From Psychrobacter okhotskensis (lineage in GTDB: Bacteria > Pseudomonadota > Gammaproteobacteria > Pseudomonadales > Moraxellaceae), in contig NZ_JABRVQ010000004.1 of the NCBI RefSeq assembly GCF_013248965.1, forward strand, positions 62,001 through 126,000: a stretch of DNA of 64,000 bases. The letters are read 5' to 3'. This document shows, piece after piece, positions 5,015 through 15,541 of the stretch (positions within the stretch are counted from its first letter, which is position 1; every line of letters begins with the position of its first letter). The notes under the pieces were generated by a model that did not search any database, was not told where the DNA came from, and saw only the letters and a program-made list of their open reading frames with translations. A program made the position numbers and the translations under genes.

Positions 5015-6229
5015 ATGACTACTCAATCTGACATTAAAAAACTAGCCGAGCAAATGGCTGGTAGCATGAAAAGCTTTGATGACATCAAAGACTTCCAAAA
5101 GCAGCTCATGCAATCCTTTATTGATACTGCCTTAGAAGCTGAGATGGAAGACCATCTTGGCTACCCTAAACATGAGAAGGCGGATAAACCTAATAAGCGT
5201 AACGGGCACACTAAAAAGACCGTCCGCAGTGACACAGGCGATCTTGAAATCTCTACCCCAAGAGACCGTGATAGCAGCTTTGAGCCTGTACTCGTTAGTA
5301 AGCATCAAACCCGTATCTCAGGTCTCGATGATAAAATCATATTCCTTTACGCCAAGGGTCAAACCACCACTGAGATCGTAGAGAGCATTAAAGAGCTCTA
5401 CGATGTCGACATCTCAAGCTCTCTTGTCTCAAGAGTCACCGATAACATATTAGAGGACATCACCGCTTGGCAGAACAGACCGCTGAGCAGCATCTATCCT
5501 ATTGTCTACCTAGACTGCATTGTCGTCAAAGTACGTCAAGACAAGCAGATCATCAACAAGGCTATCTATCTAGCGCTAGGTGTTGCTCTTAACGGTAAAA
5601 AAGAGCTGCTTGGTATGTGGTTATCAGAGAATGAGGGCGCTAAGTTCTGGCTAGGTGTTCTTACCGAGCTTCAAAACCGTGGCGTACAAGACATCTTAAT
5701 CGCTTGTGTTGACGGTCTAAAGGGCTTCCCTGATGCCATTAACACCGTCTATCCAAAGGCACAGGTTCAGCTGTGTATCGTACACATGGTGCGCTATTCA
5801 ATGAAGTTTGTGCCGTGGACGGATAAGAAGGCCGTAGCGGCTGATTTAAAGGCCATCTACGGTGCTGATACCCTTGAGATAGCAGAGGCTAACCTTGAAC
5901 ACTTTGATGAGACTTGGGGCACAGAGTACCCGCATGTCATCAAGTCTTGGCGCAATAACTGGGAGGGCTTAACGGTGTTCTTTGAGTATCCGAAAGACAT
6001 CAGAAAAGTGATTTATACCACCAATGCGATAGAGTCGCTAAACAGTGTGATTCGGACGGCAGTGAATAAGCGTAAGGTGTTCCCATCTGATCAGGCAGCA
6101 TTCAAAGTGGTGTACTTAGCCACCCAGCAGGCGTCTAAAAAGTGGTCGATGCCAATCCGTAACTGGACGTCTGCTCTGAATCGTTTTATGATTATGTTTG
6201 ATGACCGTATCAGTAAGCATTTAATCTAA
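5015..6229 (+). CDS. IS256-family (mutator-type) transposase
   Basis: The 404-residue DDE transposase moves the surrounding insertion sequence. Features of the family are visible: an N-terminal region with MEDHLGY and RNGHTKKTV (residues 43-70), catalytic D167 in VYLDCIVVKV, D233 in ACVDGLKGFPD, the C/H motif CIVHMVR (254-260), and catalytic E340 in TTNAIESLN. All three acidic residues are present and the frame is uninterrupted, so activity is plausible. The start ATG has GGAG about 9 bases upstream. The stop lies 4 bases inside the right inverted repeat boundary, the compact arrangement typical of these elements. Confidence 0.96.
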   Translation: MTTQSDIKKLAEQMAGSMKSFDDIKDFQKQLMQSFIDTALEAEMEDHLGYPKHEKADKPNKRNGHTKKTVRSDTGDLEISTPRDRDSSFEPVLVSKHQTRISGLDDKIIFLYAKGQTTTEIVESIKELYDVDISSSLVSRVTDNILEDITAWQNRPLSSIYPIVYLDCIVVKVRQDKQIINKAIYLALGVALNGKKELLGMWLSENEGAKFWLGVLTELQNRGVQDILIACVDGLKGFPDAINTVYPKAQVQLCIVHMVRYSMKFVPWTDKKAVAADLKAIYGADTLEIAEANLEHFDETWGTEYPHVIKSWRNNWEGLTVFFEYPKDIRKVIYTTNAIESLNSVIRTAVNKRKVFPSDQAAFKVVYLATQQASKKWSMPIRNWTSALNRFMIMFDDRISKHLI

Positions 6230-6232
6230 ATG

Positions 6233-6260
6233 GCAGTTACACAGAATCTGGGATGGGCTC
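6233..6260 (-). repeat. IS right inverted repeat
   Basis: The reverse complement of this 28-base block pairs with the left end; both start GAGCC and share CTGTGTAACTGC. Confidence 0.88.
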
Positions 6261-6268
6261 CGCTGGCT
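6261..6268. repeat. Target-site duplication, right copy
   Basis: CGCTGGCT directly follows the right inverted repeat and is identical to 4951-4958. Confidence 0.9.
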
Positions 6269-6424
6269 TTAATAGTGGGCAAATATGCGGGTCATGAGCC
6301 GTCTTTCTTTAATGATTTACTCGGCGCTCGTCCCTTGCGCACAGTCTTCCTGTTATGTTCGAGCTTCGTATTGACATTTTGTTATTCACTCGCGCAAGAT
6401 AAAACTTTGGATATAAAAGTGTAG
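6261..6424 (+). pseudogene. 3' part of a small frame split by the IS
   Basis: Removing the IS and one copy of the duplication joins ATG at 4938 to this segment in one continuous 58-codon frame ending at TAG 6422-6424. The first part encodes MASASLA. The second has a hydrophobic stretch (TVFLLCSSFVLTFCYSLA). I recognise no family. The purine-rich stretch before ATG 4938 could act as a weak ribosome site. The frame may be fortuitous, since it runs into a dispersed-looking GC-rich hairpin. It is recorded because the insertion interrupts it. Confidence 0.25.
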
Positions 6425-6441
6425 GGTGCGCCCCGCGCACC
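6425..6441. repeat. GC-rich perfect hairpin in AT-rich spacer
   Basis: GGTGCGC-CCC-GCGCACC is a 7-bp perfect stem with a 3-base loop, followed by TTT. It stands out from the surrounding AT-rich DNA. It could be a terminator or a dispersed intergenic repeat. The rest of the 6442-6607 spacer holds nothing I can identify. Confidence 0.45.
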
Positions 6442-6607
6442 TTTAAGAAACGGATTTTAAATTTATGTGTATTATTTGAGAAATACCTAAAACATAAAAT
6501 CATCTATATGATGAAGTGGTTTTAATTCGTTCTTTATGTATTATACTTTGGTATGCTAGCCAGCCGCACCTTTGTATCTTGACAAGATTATTAAACAATC
6601 CTAGAAT

Positions 6608-7873
6608 TTATTTAAAAAGATTAGGGTTGTTAATTAAAACATCTTTAGCGATTGCTTTTACTACTGGTACACTAACTGCATTACCTAGCTGTTTGTAAGC
6701 AAAGTTATCTTTAGGATGCAATACATATGAATCGGGAAAACCTTGTAGTCTTGCACACTCTCTAGGAGTTAGACGACGTACACGTCCATTATGATAAACT
6801 CCTAATCTGTTGGAATCAGACGCTGTTAAAGTTATTGAGATACTATCTGGATCAAGGAATTTGAATACTTCGAACGACATGTTTCCTGCGACCAAATTGT
6901 ACAAACCATCTTTTTCTTTAATATAACGCTTTTGTAGTAGCGATTTGATAACCAAATCAATGTCATCATATGGATAGAAAGTTGCAATCTGAGCTTTACT
7001 CAATGCTTTTCCATCCTGATGTGTACCGAAAATATTTTTTCGACGATTAGCAATTAACAGATCCATAAATTCAATTTCATGTTTGGTACATTCACCTCGT
7101 AATCCTAGATCCCACGAGTGTATAGAATTTCCCCCACGACTATCTATAAGACGTATACCATGTAACTTATCTAAATCTCCTTTCAATACTTTTTTTAATT
7201 GAGCTGTAAAATCTTCAGAGCAGTCATAATGTGCACTGGGATTTGATTCTAAAATGTCTTTAACTAGTGCTGATTGCTTTTCGTCAAATAAATCATTATT
7301 CATCAAATTTTCTTTGAATGCATGAGAATCTACAGCCCCAACATCATTTGGCAACGTAACTTTAAGAGTAGGGTTTTTGACTGCCACTATATAAATCCGC
7401 ACACGATTCTGCGCTACGTTATAGTTGCTTGAGTTAAGTAATCTATATTCAAGCTGGTAACCCAAATCATTTAAGACATTTTTAATAGTAGTAAATGTTT
7501 GACCTTTATTGTGATTTACCAATCCTCGAACGTTCTCAAGTATACATAAGGCAGGCTGATTGCTTTCGATTAAACGCGCTACATCGAAGAACAGAGTACC
7601 TCTCGTATCTTCAAAACCTAATCTTTTGCCAGCAGAAGAAAAAGCTTGACACGGAAATCCTGCTAATAATACATCGAATTCTTTTACATTATATAGCTGC
7701 GTAATATCACAGTATGGATTCTCACCAAAATTTTCTTCATAAGTTTTACATGCTTCTTTGTCTATTTCAGCACTGAGCACGCATTCGGATTTTATATTTA
7801 ACTCATCTAAAGCTTGTTCGAAACCAAGTCGGATGCCACCTGTTCCAGCGAATAAATCAATAAATCTAATCAT
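6608..7873 (-). CDS. Type II DNA (cytosine-5-)-methyltransferase
   Basis: The 421-residue enzyme transfers a methyl group from S-adenosylmethionine to C5 of cytosine, protecting DNA from the partner endonuclease. The canonical motifs occur in order: motif I DLFAGTGGIRLGFE (6-19), motif IV GFPCQAFSSAGKR with catalytic C75, motif VI ENVRG (113-117), motif VIII QNRVRIYIVA (155-164), a large target-recognition region (about 170-355), motif IX RLTPRECARLQGFP (367-380) and motif X GNAVSVPVV (397-405). Its ATG overlaps the endonuclease stop by one base, implying coupled translation. The ribosome site inside the upstream gene is weak. Recognition sequence cannot be read from the sequence; sizes resemble BanI/HgiCI-type pairs, which is only a hint. 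Composition is AT-richer than neighbours, suggesting transfer. Confidence 0.95.
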   Translation of the reverse strand: MIRFIDLFAGTGGIRLGFEQALDELNIKSECVLSAEIDKEACKTYEENFGENPYCDITQLYNVKEFDVLLAGFPCQAFSSAGKRLGFEDTRGTLFFDVARLIESNQPALCILENVRGLVNHNKGQTFTTIKNVLNDLGYQLEYRLLNSSNYNVAQNRVRIYIVAVKNPTLKVTLPNDVGAVDSHAFKENLMNNDLFDEKQSALVKDILESNPSAHYDCSEDFTAQLKKVLKGDLDKLHGIRLIDSRGGNSIHSWDLGLRGECTKHEIEFMDLLIANRRKNIFGTHQDGKALSKAQIATFYPYDDIDLVIKSLLQKRYIKEKDGLYNLVAGNMSFEVFKFLDPDSISITLTASDSNRLGVYHNGRVRRLTPRECARLQGFPDSYVLHPKDNFAYKQLGNAVSVPVVKAIAKDVLINNPNLFK

Positions 7874-8889
7874 TAAATATTATCTTTTATGTAATTAACC
7901 ATTTGCAGTAATCCAGTATCAGAAAAATTTACAGTACAATCACTATAATTTAATATGTTTTGTATAGCACTCTTCCTTTGAAAGTTACCTGAACCATCTA
8001 TTATATAACCAACTTTATGATTGTGCTGATGTGCAATTTGCTGTCTGTTATTAGCATTCTGTGCTTTTCTCTCAATTACAGAGTTAGTAGTAACTTGGAA
8101 GCTAACTTCTATACCGATAGAACGATTAGTTCTTGGATTAGAAACTACTAGATCAAATTTAGTTAGCTCTGTATCATTTAAGGTAACATTTACTAAGGTA
8201 TGTCCATTAAAACTATAGTAATCAGGCAGCATTTCCTCGAGTCTTCTTTTAACATAAGCTTCGCAAATATAACCAAGATCATTAGCTGTAGAACCACCAA
8301 TCTGACGGCTAACAAACAGATAGCGCTCTTTAACATATTTTTCTAATTTCTCAGGACTTCCGATCATACTACCAATAATAGCTTTTTCCAAAATCTCATC
8401 TGGTAATTTAGAAGGGTCTGTAGTGTTTGCTCCCCAAATCAATAACATGCAAACATCGAGCATATCATTGTTAAACGTTTGACGGTTTTCAAGTAATAGA
8501 GACTTTTCAACCCTTAGTTTCTTATTATTCCAAATACGTTTTTCAGTTTTACTGAATTTGTAGGTATGGACAACGTTATCAAATGCAAATTCTAACTTCT
8601 GTTTGGGAAAGAGCTGGAAAAAATCTTTTGAGTAACGTTGTAAACGTTCTCCACCAATATCTGTAAGTACCATGAGGTGCTTTAGAAAAAGATTGGCTGA
8701 TAATGCTTTGTTTTGAATAAGCGCCTCTTTCCACGCATAAGGACTAGCATCAGCCACTTTCAAAAGATTTAAAAAAGTATCTTGTGTCTCAAGAAGAGGA
8801 ATTAGAGTGCTTTTATCAGCCGCCTCTTTTACTAAATCTGATGGCCAGTAATTGCATGCATCTTTAGCGAGTTCATCAACAGTTTGCAT
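7873..8889 (-). CDS. Probable type II restriction endonuclease
   Basis: This 338-residue protein is upstream of and overlaps the methyltransferase by one base, the usual place for its cognate endonuclease. I do not recognise the family with certainty. A PD-(D/E)xK-like core is visible near the C-terminus: D246 in TKFDLVVSN, then E261-V-S-F-Q in IGIEVSFQ, followed by VIERK (271-275). The usual ExK lysine is replaced by serine at the expected position, with Q265 or K275 as candidate substitutes. The first two thirds are helical and charged. The upstream ribosome site is poor. No controller (C-protein) gene or C-box is seen. The strongly AT-rich composition supports horizontal acquisition with the methyltransferase. 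Confidence 0.75.
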   Translation of the reverse strand: MQTVDELAKDACNYWPSDLVKEAADKSTLIPLLETQDTFLNLLKVADASPYAWKEALIQNKALSANLFLKHLMVLTDIGGERLQRYSKDFFQLFPKQKLEFAFDNVVHTYKFSKTEKRIWNNKKLRVEKSLLLENRQTFNNDMLDVCMLLIWGANTTDPSKLPDEILEKAIIGSMIGSPEKLEKYVKERYLFVSRQIGGSTANDLGYICEAYVKRRLEEMLPDYYSFNGHTLVNVTLNDTELTKFDLVVSNPRTNRSIGIEVSFQVTTNSVIERKAQNANNRQQIAHQHNHKVGYIIDGSGNFQRKSAIQNILNYSDCTVNFSDTGLLQMVNYIKDNI

Positions 8890-13019: not shown

Positions 13020-13468
13020 GGGCAGACCTGTTAATTAAAAAGTGGCACTAAAAATAAGCCGTTATTGTTATTCATTAACAACGGCTCATTTAAAAGCGCT
13101 CATTTTAACATGAATCGCACTCATGATGCGACCTATTCTATGATGGGCGATTAATGATAAGTTATTGATAGCGCGAGATAAACTGCTTATGCAAAGTGAG
13201 CGACTAGCCTAGCAAAATAATGGCAAAAATGGTTTAAGCAGAACCGTCTATCTTCGCAAACATGGTTGTTAAAGTACAGTTATCAAAGTATGGGTTTGGT
13301 CAGTACTAATCATTTGTTTTCTCATGTTTTGTTAGCCGTTCTGATTTTCATCCATAACTTTTGGCATAGCTTTTGCTCCAACCCCGTTAGGGCTTATTTG
13401 TGTGCATTCATGAGTGAAAATGGTGCACCGATAAAAATTGAACGGATAGATAAGTGTTTGGAGATAAA
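13020..13468. other. 449-bp divergent promoter region between ygiQ and amt
   Basis: This gene-free region drives ygiQ leftward and amt rightward. It contains an interrupted hairpin at 13057-13086 (AGCCGTT/AACGGCT outer stem, GTTA/TAAC inner stem) in the presumed ygiQ leader and a sigma-54-type promoter at 13361-13377. I did not find a convincing NtrC site (TGCACC-N5-GGTGCA), although GGTGCA occurs downstream at 13422-13427. Confidence 0.6.
13361..13377 (+). promoter_or_regulatory. Sigma-54 (RpoN) type -24/-12 promoter for amt
   Basis: TTGGCATAGCTTTTGCT carries GG (13363-13364) and GC (13375-13376) separated by exactly 10 bases, the invariant sigma-54 spacing, with TGGCA and TTGC boxes both matching the consensus. 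Transcription would start near 13387, leaving a leader of about 80 bases before amt. Nitrogen-controlled sigma-54 promoters are well known for ammonium transporters. Confidence 0.7.
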
Positions 13469-14848
13469 ATGAGAACATCATCTGTTGGGCTGGATGCGAT
13501 AAAAGGGCTACTAAGAACATTACTGCACAAGATACTTATGCTGGGGACGCTACTGTTTGGCACGATAGCTAGTGCACAAGCGGCCGCGGCTGACACATTG
13601 ACGGTGGCGCAGCTACTCGAATATCAAAATATCGCTTGGATTATCTGGGGCGGGGTTCTGGTGTTCTTTATGCAGGCAGGTTTTGCGCTACTTGAGAGCG
13701 GATCGGTACGCGCAAAGAACGCCGTCAATGTGATGATGAAAAACTATACCGATATGTGTATCGGTGGTCTGGCGTTTTATTTGGTGGGTTTTGGGTTGAT
13801 GATGGGTACTAATCATTCGGGGTTTGTCGGTACCGATCATTTTATGCCAGTCAATCTATCCAATATGGACTGGGCACTGATGTTCTTTCAGATGATGTTT
13901 GCGGCGACAGCGGTGACCATCGCGAGTGGTGCCATGGCAGAGCGTGTCTCGTTTATCGGCTATGCAGTCGCCGCCTGTTTGATCTGTCTATTTATCTATC
14001 CTGTGTTTGCCAGTTGGGTGTGGGGTGGGTATTTCGGCGGAACAGGGTGGCTGACCGAGCTTGGTTTTATTGATTTTGCTGGTTCGACCGTCGTGCATTC
14101 TATCGGGGGCTGGTTGGCACTGGCAGGTGTTTTAGTTATCGGACCGAGACTGGGCCGCTTTGCACCCGATGGGACGCCAAGACTCATCGCAGGTCACAAC
14201 ATGACGCTATTGGCGCTTGGCGGGTTTATCTTATGGTTTGGTTGGTTTGGCTTCAATGCTGGATCGACATTATCTATCACTGGAAATATTGGCTTGATTG
14301 CCGTCAATACTTTTATCGCTGCGGTCAGTGCGGTGGTGAGCTACATGCTGATTGCTCGGACAATGAACAAAGCAATCTTGCTCAGTGATAGTGTCAATGC
14401 CAGTTTGATCGGACTCGTGTCTATCACGGCAGGCTGTGCCACAACGACGCCTTTATTTTCTATTATTATCGGTGGGGTTGCTGCCGTGGTCTATATATTG
14501 TCTACGCAGGCGCTACTAAAGCTCAAAATAGACGACGTGGTTTCAGCAGTGGCCGTACATGGCTTTGGTGGTGTGTGGGGTACACTTGCGGCTGGGCTAT
14601 TTTATACAGGGGATTTATTTAATTTATCACGGCTGGGCGTGCAGGCGCTGGGCGTCGGTGTAGCTTTGGTATGGGCACTAGGTCTGGGTCTTATTATGTA
14701 TAAGCTGATTGATCTGAGCTTTGGGTTAAAGGCGAGCCGGTTACACGAGCAGCGTGGCCTTGACTATACCGAGCATGCAGAGCTGGGTTACCCTGAGTTT
14801 CAAAAGCAAATGTTCGATGCTAAAAGTCTAACAGAGCGTCACTTATAG
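13469..14848 (+). CDS. amt: Ammonium transporter Amt
   Basis: The 459-residue protein is an Amt/MEP/Rh channel importing ammonium across the inner membrane. The start ATG at 13469 has GGAG 6 bases upstream; an earlier in-frame GTG overlaps that site. A cleavable signal peptide is likely, ending in AQAAAAD near residue 35, as in other Amt proteins. About eleven transmembrane helices follow. The conserved pore twin histidines are H210 (STVVHSIGGW) and H364 (AVHGFGGVWGT), with MAERVSF and FNAGSTL also matching. A cytoplasmic tail follows the last helix. It is led by a sigma-54-type promoter and followed after 10 bases by an unknown gene instead of the frequent partner glnK. Confidence 0.96.
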   Translation: MRTSSVGLDAIKGLLRTLLHKILMLGTLLFGTIASAQAAAADTLTVAQLLEYQNIAWIIWGGVLVFFMQAGFALLESGSVRAKNAVNVMMKNYTDMCIGGLAFYLVGFGLMMGTNHSGFVGTDHFMPVNLSNMDWALMFFQMMFAATAVTIASGAMAERVSFIGYAVAACLICLFIYPVFASWVWGGYFGGTGWLTELGFIDFAGSTVVHSIGGWLALAGVLVIGPRLGRFAPDGTPRLIAGHNMTLLALGGFILWFGWFGFNAGSTLSITGNIGLIAVNTFIAAVSAVVSYMLIARTMNKAILLSDSVNASLIGLVSITAGCATTTPLFSIIIGGVAAVVYILSTQALLKLKIDDVVSAVAVHGFGGVWGTLAAGLFYTGDLFNLSRLGVQALGVGVALVWALGLGLIMYKLIDLSFGLKASRLHEQRGLDYTEHAELGYPEFQKQMFDAKSLTERHL

Positions 14849-14858
14849 GAGAGAGCTG

Positions 14859-15491
14859 ATGAATACTGATACTCAATCCGTAGACCAAACGGTATCCGCG
14901 ATGGCAGAGGTACTGGCAAAATACTTACATCCTGAGGAAGTACGACTGCTCAAGACCCAATGGCTACAGTACTCGGCGGTCTCTGTCAGGATGATGCAGC
15001 AATGCATCTTGGATGCGACAAGGCGCTATCCTGAACTACAAGATCACAAATCTGAAATTCGTAAAGGCTTTTGGGCTACGTTGCAAGTGGATAGTCAGCA
15101 GACAGTGGAGTCTGACAGTCACAATGGCCATAACGAGACAATCAATGCACCCGTACCTATCTCTGAGCCCGTTCTCGCATTTTATACCGTGATAGAAGCG
15201 CTGCGCAGTCAGCTAACGGCAGCAGACAGTCGCAGCTTTTTTCATAGTATGCACCAAACTGTTTCGCAAGAACGCACCTTCAAAGGGCATCACATCAATA
15301 TCAATCAGTTTTTGGAAGGTAATCGTCCACCTGTACCGGACAATGAGCACCTGTTAAACAATCTGATGCAACTTGCCTACGTGTGCTTGTGCGATATTAC
15401 TGGTCCTGTAGAGGCAGATGAGATACTGTTTCAAGCAGCACAAACGGCCAAGCAAAGTTATCCAAAAGCCGTCGTCGAAAAATTATTTTAA
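14859..15491 (+). CDS. Unknown 210-residue protein co-transcribed with amt
   Basis: I do not recognise this gene. It starts 10 bases after the amt stop with GGAGAG as ribosome site, so it is almost certainly translated from the amt message. The product is soluble, acidic and largely helical, without signal peptide or membrane span. Two blocks are separated by a polar linker (about residues 85-105): an N-terminal block with HPEEVRLLKTQW and a C-terminal block with FKGHHININQFLEGNRPP and GPVEADEILFQAAQ. It has no PII features (no T-loop tyrosine region, no PII signature), so it is not GlnK. Its position suggests a role in ammonium uptake or nitrogen sensing, which is inference only. Confidence 0.85.
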   Translation: MNTDTQSVDQTVSAMAEVLAKYLHPEEVRLLKTQWLQYSAVSVRMMQQCILDATRRYPELQDHKSEIRKGFWATLQVDSQQTVESDSHNGHNETINAPVPISEPVLAFYTVIEALRSQLTAADSRSFFHSMHQTVSQERTFKGHHININQFLEGNRPPVPDNEHLLNNLMQLAYVCLCDITGPVEADEILFQAAQTAKQSYPKAVVEKLF

Positions 15492-15505: not shown

Positions 15506-15541
15506 ACGTTACGAGCAAGTACGGATATCGCCTCGTAACGT
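15506..15541. repeat. Perfect 10-bp inverted repeat between convergent genes
   Basis: ACGTTACGAG (15506-15515) and CTCGTAACGT (15532-15541) can pair around a 16-base loop. It lies in the 92-bp gap between the convergent amt operon and lipoprotein gene. There is no T run, so it is a candidate factor-dependent terminator or protein site rather than a classic terminator. Confidence 0.5.

Follow-up and report, generated by a model that had tools for sequence, protein, structure and literature searches.

A helical companion protein paired with a sensor-type Amt in Gammaproteobacteria: candidate half of a split ammonium receptor

Results

Organization of the amt-companion locus

We have analysed a 64-kb stretch of DNA, referred to as the window, in which a gene encoding a sensor-type Amt is followed directly by a second gene, termed the companion. 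The features of the locus are:

13362..13377, + strand: promoter motif of the RpoN (sigma-54) -24/-12 type, TGGCATAGCTTTTGCT
13469..14848, + strand: amt, sensor-type ammonium channel (PF00909/TIGR00836, PDB matches, tree, site residues)
14847..14851, + strand: Shine-Dalgarno sequence AGGAG, read directly and overlapping the amt stop codon
14859..15491, + strand: companion gene, encoding a 210-aa helical protein of an undescribed family (ORF, ATG start, family searches, model, dN/dS)
15378..15419, + strand: family signature in the C-terminal block, Y-x3-C-[DE]-x2-G-P-x2-A-D, residues 174-187 (52 members)
15506..15541, no strand assigned: perfect inverted repeat of 10 nt immediately downstream of the companion, a possible transcript end (sequence)

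The amt product matches PF00909 at 5e-105 and TIGR00836 over its cut-off. Two starts are available, ATG 13469 and GTG 13454, the latter reported by the ORF lister; the ATG is the likelier since GGAG stands just before it, and residue numbers of the window Amt given here count from GTG 13454. The amt stop codon, TAG, occupies 14846-14848 and is separated from the companion ATG by a spacer of 10 nt, in agreement with the sequence-only reading of this DNA, which had described the ORF at 14859-15491 as starting 10 bp after amt behind a ribosome site. The same spacer is observed in 25/25 own-genus loci of the single-sequence family survey, as is the TAGGAG layout in which stop codon and Shine-Dalgarno sequence are combined. 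No T-run follows the inverted repeat at 15506..15541, which is the reason it is listed only as a possible transcript end.

The -24/-12 motif begins 107 nt before the amt ATG. TGGCAYNNNNNTTGCW was matched once in the window, a result that carries little weight alone since 0.39 matches are expected by chance. Motifs of this type are found upstream of amt in 28/28 family loci (25 from the own genus, counting that of the window, and 3 from a second genus), with inner letters that have diverged among them, and in 29/60 other loci, some of them close relatives; the expectation in both sets is 0.08 per 480 bp. This distribution suggests RpoN, hence nitrogen, control of the amt-companion transcript.

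Comparison with six relatives gave companion dN/dS values of 0.09-0.13, which indicate a real gene under purifying selection, more than a chance ORF; the values for amt in the same six comparisons are 0.02-0.06. Kyte-Doolittle means over 19 residues peak at 1.2 in the companion and its net charge is -8, so that it is probably cytoplasmic; a mean of 1.6 is reached in 13/208 linked loci, repeats counted. Over 52 members the signature residue D187 is invariant and Y174, C178, G182 and P183 are conserved in at least 90%. C178 is not absolute, being replaced by A in L058, which speaks against cysteine-based chemistry. The linker of one relative (L137:976-1872, +) contains a long run of repeated N-D-V triplets, suggesting that the region between the two blocks of the protein tolerates expansion.

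Elsewhere in the window, at 5015-8889, a transposase-like gene (5015-6229) was noted by eye next to a gene resembling a cytosine-5 DNA methyltransferase, with a partner ORF (6608-7873 and 7873-8889, minus strand), the latter two perhaps forming a restriction-modification pair.

The companion family and its predicted fold

No Pfam or NCBIfam family matched the companion above cut-off in hmmscan searches up to E 10, the best being DUF4559 at E 0.11, and neither PII (PF00543) nor GGDEF was matched. Among 52 diverse relatives no Pfam or NCBIfam family was matched consistently, PF00543 being absent from the 25 families listed of 42 matched. DUF4559, TipAS, DUF2267, HBM and others were each rejected as the family, having been matched in ≤3/23 or ≤2/52 members. 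The companion contains no recognisable output motif and no known interaction motif. A mobile gene was also considered and set aside, tblastn giving no match in plasmids with the companion protein or in phages with the L045 protein. As far as Pfam, NCBIfam and the open-access literature go, the family is undescribed; no publication on the companion was found in the open-access literature, judged by titles and abstract openings.

AlphaFold models of the window companion (mean pLDDT 78.8, pTM 0.51) and of a Zhongshania relative (82.8 and 0.55) consist of helices only, with no strand, arranged in two blocks joined by a low-confidence linker. The blocks do not appear to be an internal duplication (hhalign probability 1.6%). 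The PII fold is alpha/beta ferredoxin-like with a T-loop, and an alpha/beta fold of this type is absent from both predictions. Foldseek returned no PDB match at E 0.001 or better for either model, and the best VIA-align Z scores against the PDB, 6.5 and 5.2, lie within the tool's stated chance range. The absence of a convincing PDB match among these predicted structures does not make the fold new. The earlier description of a helical two-block protein with no PII features and no recognised family is borne out by these models and searches, in which no clear match to an unrelated function appeared; the fold search it had proposed, carried out with Foldseek on predicted structure, ended without a convincing match.

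Linkage of the companion to amt

Linkage was surveyed at several taxonomic depths. A single-protein search of 199 family genomes matched 37, and in 37/37 the companion lies directly 3' of amt, a linkage that holds even at about 20% companion identity. A profile search of 390 order genomes identified 61 distinct genes in 54 genomes (63 rows, two genes each being in two pieces), of which 58 are directly 3' of amt. All 29 loci of a named collection are linked, the hosts including Zhongshania, Pseudomonas of the oleovorans/chengduensis/composti kind, Alkanindiges, Fluviicoccus and a Marinicella bin. At class level 14/369 genomes matched, with 13 of the 14 distinct genes besides the window's linked, and at phylum level 7/398, all of the same class, with six linked and one weak, unrelated-looking match (L251, 4e-5, apparently secreted, no amt). 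A single family includes relatives with identities as low as ~13%, and in these surveys it was confined to Gammaproteobacteria. The sequence-only reading had proposed a linkage survey of Moraxellaceae, and the mostly unlinked distribution that would have spoken against it did not appear.

Four unlinked cases were encountered in the four main surveys: one stub, one fragment and two weak matches. L092 is a C-terminal fragment in G405 with no amt within the 5.5 kb fetched, L096 is a weak match (9e-5) that disappeared on rescoring, and L139 comprises the N-block only (1.7e-5) with no amt. The stub, L090, retains only the 3' end of the companion (E 1e-8) in G015, beside the two genes that adjoin the intact pair in L027. 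Since these neighbours are kept with no amt near, amt and companion were apparently lost together in G015.

The companion start ranges from an overlap with the amt stop, typically 4 nt, as in many loci, and up to 19 nt (a maximum that depends on the script's choice of start), to some tens of nt after it, with larger gaps in one genus (about 107 nt) and in L062 (128 nt). In the window and the linked loci the companion is a separate ORF at or after the amt stop. Two candidate Amt-companion fusions were rejected, the 671-aa frame of L060 overlapping amt out of frame and the companion of L080, where the long frame had 424 aa, starting at the amt stop with a 4-nt overlap. No third gene recurs beyond close relatives in 15 neighbourhoods with flanks of mostly 4 kb, the other shared groups being either shadow frames (antisense or off-frame) or genes adjoining the pair in close relatives.

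Surveys led by the companion are biased, and the reverse count therefore matters more. With the window Amt as query, 54/54 Amts listed at ≥55% identity in the family set (199 genomes) are followed by the companion, and the listed identities then drop from this tier to 42%. Both genes occur in 25/66 own-genus genomes; the other 41 have no companion by single-sequence search and no listed Amt of the subtype. In the order set 59/61 Amt rows listed at ≥53% identity (59 full length, 2 fragments) have a companion, and the two lacking it are cut off, with a contig end at most 32 nt away. Neither Amt listing would show small fragments that fall below the E-value limits. Five genomes (G321, G366, G386, G424 and G443) contain two such Amts each, every copy with its own companion. 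The Amt-led check also recovered companions missed by sequence search: that of G209 (48.9 bits), missed by the profile, and 14 further family-set companions plus three of genus g7, missed by the single-sequence search. Full-length companions were not found away from this Amt subtype in these surveys. Dedicated one-to-one pairing is strongly supported by these counts, which also indicate that the pair has long been co-inherited.

A sensor-type Amt

The best PDB match of the window Amt is Ks-Amt5 (6EU6, E 1e-93), the Amt module of an ammonium-sensing kinase from Kuenenia, followed by an Amt-diguanylate cyclase (8QJ3/8QPF, E 8e-82) in which the search located a GGDEF domain at 461-629. Weaker matches are 2B2F (5e-53) and 'ammonia channel' entries (3e-33), which we take to be E. 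coli AmtB. In the order search, 48/49 rows listed next after the companion tier, at 39-47% identity and setting aside a G424 fragment, lie in frames of 700-1190 aa. Thirteen of these long frames were examined and all carry signalling modules: six are Amt-MCP, six Amt-PAS-GGDEF-EAL and one Amt-histidine kinase.

Maximum-likelihood analysis of 49 rows, with AfAmt1 as root and companion Amts thinned to 19 plus the window's, placed the companion Amts in one clade (bootstrap/SH-aLRT 99/99). The fused sensors, 6EU6, 8QJ3 and the unfused L223 form another (95/86), sister to the first (96/81), and PII-linked Amts and kin constitute a third (100/97). The window Amt thus groups with the fused sensors and away from PII-linked Amts. 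Six rows were left out of this tree, L225 (the kinase fusion), L232b and the remote Amts L231 and L239-L241; in a quick 72-row tree including all six, labelled companion Amts again form one clade (99), and SH-aLRT support for the joint sensor group is 84, its basal member 6EU6 having a long branch. Searches revealed no companion beside the fused sister Amts.

Several sister-clade architectures are worth recording in their own right. In six order genomes (L213-L218) the Amt is fused to a methyl-accepting chemotaxis signalling domain, an arrangement suggestive of a channel-based ammonium chemoreceptor and for which no paper was found in the open-access literature. The six PAS-GGDEF-EAL frames tested (L219, L220, L221, L222, L224 and L229) suggest ammonium control of cyclic-di-GMP, and such fusions are probably frequent, since frames of this length occur in many order-set rows. 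In L223:3-2198 (-) the unfused Amt is followed after about 15 nt by a HAMP + PAS frame with a weak dCache match, possibly another split sensor.

Ammonium site, pore and C-tail

Ks-Amt5 binds two ammonium ions among Q24, E31, N47, D50, T51, T109 and T112, and its pore is closed with the help of F27, Y30 and F34, according to the published account (PMC5764959). In the window Amt five of the seven site residues are identical (Q74, E81, N97, D100 and T155), T112 is replaced by S158 and T51 by M101; the 13 fused rows and 8QJ3 likewise lack T51. By alignment, Q24, E31, N47, D50 and T109 are kept in 134/134 distinct companion Amts and 13/13 fused Amts. The seven Amts for which the fetched piece includes a PII gene invariably have A in place of Q24, L in place of D50 and S in place of T109, with E31 and N47 also present. 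Twelve further Amts, including one companion-clade Amt at a contig end (L211), have Q24 in 2, T109 in 2, D50 in 6, N47 in 7 and E31 in 11.

Few exceptions were seen to conservation of the selectivity-filter, Phe-gate and twin-His positions. Among the pore closers F77 is retained, as F also is in the seven PII-linked Amts, but Y30 is replaced by L80 and F34 by S84. Since two of the three Ks-Amt5 pore-closing residues are not kept, transport through the window Amt is possible. The C-tail residues Q433, D437, E443 and YPEF 446-449 are nearly invariant in 135 companion Amts, making this cytoplasmic tail a candidate docking site; it is lost or changed in fused Amts, and D437 and YPEF, but neither Q433 nor E443, recur in the seven PII-linked Amts.

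PII in companion genomes

The window genome encodes its own glnK at another site, 5' of a second amtB, and PII is encoded in 20/20 companion genomes chosen for the test. Replacement of a missing PII was rejected on this basis. The earlier proposal that the companion takes the glnK position does not stand, as a glnK-amtB pair is kept elsewhere and the Amt is of a different, sensor-type clade; 'glnK position after amt' was also loose wording since the real glnK precedes the second amtB.

Discussion

Because the companion is paired one for one with the Amts closest to fused ammonium sensors, it is probably the cytoplasmic half, so far missing, of a pair that senses ammonium. The explanation we favour, with somewhat better than even confidence, is that it is the dedicated cytoplasmic partner of a sensor-type Amt, the two together forming a split ammonium receptor, for which binding and signalling are proposed. 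Linkage that is one-to-one and nearly exclusive throughout the Amt clade gives good support to the earlier suggestion of a new Amt partner; its alternative, a nitrogen-state sensor, survives in part, the clade placing sensing mainly in the Amt, with the companion itself rather likely an output or regulator.

As judged from motif and spacing, nitrogen limitation would lead to RpoN-dependent transcription of both genes as one transcript, with coupled translation. The Amt trimer carries the residues of a Ks-Amt5-like intramembrane site and would take NH4+ there, occupancy altering the cytoplasmic face and conserved C-tail such that the helical companion is bound or released. The companion may then pass the signal on or gate the channel, standing where the sister clade has a covalently fused MCP, GGDEF-EAL or histidine-kinase output. 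Several observations count against a split receptor. C-tail D437 and YPEF are common to companion and PII-linked Amts and absent in fused ones, which fits a gated transporter equally; Y30, F34 and T51 are changed to L80, S84 and M101; E31 and N47 occur in the seven PII-linked Amts as well; and the companion has no output motif or confident fold (pTM 0.51 and 0.55).

The main rival, which we consider unlikely, makes the companion a PII-like gate, docking on the cytoplasmic face of the Amt and blocking or opening transport by nitrogen state with no onward signal. Dedicated pairing, the strongly kept C-tail, the RpoN-type motif and the possible transport through a pore with two closing residues replaced are all consistent with such a gate, but the Amt has a sensor-type site and groups with fused sensors, the companion has neither PII fold nor family match, and PII is still encoded in every one of the 20 genomes tested. 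A factor serving the assembly, stability or quality control of this type of Amt would fit the one-to-one pairing, and likely coupled translation, with 4-nt overlaps in many loci, fits production in equal amounts; such a factor is nonetheless improbable, as the sister Amts have different, fused domains and no companion was detected beside them, leaving a single clade in need of a private chaperone. Least probable of all is a nitrogen-starvation protein with its own function that merely shares the amt transcript, a view consistent with the shared RpoN-type motif and the lack of a known interaction motif and opposed by the apparent co-loss and by the surveys, in which no full-length copies were found apart from the Amt subtype.

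Should the split receptor be correct, culturable Gammaproteobacteria would offer a simpler, two-gene version of the sensor in which Amt and output could be removed, mixed and titrated independently, and the normal glnK-amtB pair in the same cell would provide a built-in control. The system bears on whether Amt proteins themselves sense ammonium, and by what output, and would provide a function lead for a family of unknown proteins present in many genomes. We advance more tentatively, at rather less than an even chance, the view that a sensor-type Amt with a freestanding helical effector of a new family constitutes a third bacterial ammonium-signalling architecture beside GlnK-AmtB and fused Amt transducers, extending across Gammaproteobacteria including Moraxellaceae, Pseudomonas and Zhongshania.

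The amt-companion system is a variant of Amt-based sensing, not a new kind of system. GlnK(PII)-AmtB likewise combines an Amt with a small soluble protein encoded beside it, probably with nitrogen control, but the companion is helical rather than PII-folded with no PII family match, its Amt belongs to another clade, and the glnK of the window genome precedes its amtB elsewhere. The Amt-diguanylate cyclase (8QJ3/8QPF), second-best PDB match and a member of the clade sister to companion Amts, differs in carrying a fused second-messenger enzyme, whereas the companion has no GGDEF match. Ks-Amt5 (6EU6), described as a characterised ammonium sensor and anammox fusion protein with, as its paper states, no glnK near its gene (PMC5764959), is the best PDB match and shares five of seven site residues, with one further conservative change. 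Its output is a fused histidine kinase, in contrast to the separate gene of a new family found here, and two of its three pore-closing residues are changed in the window Amt.
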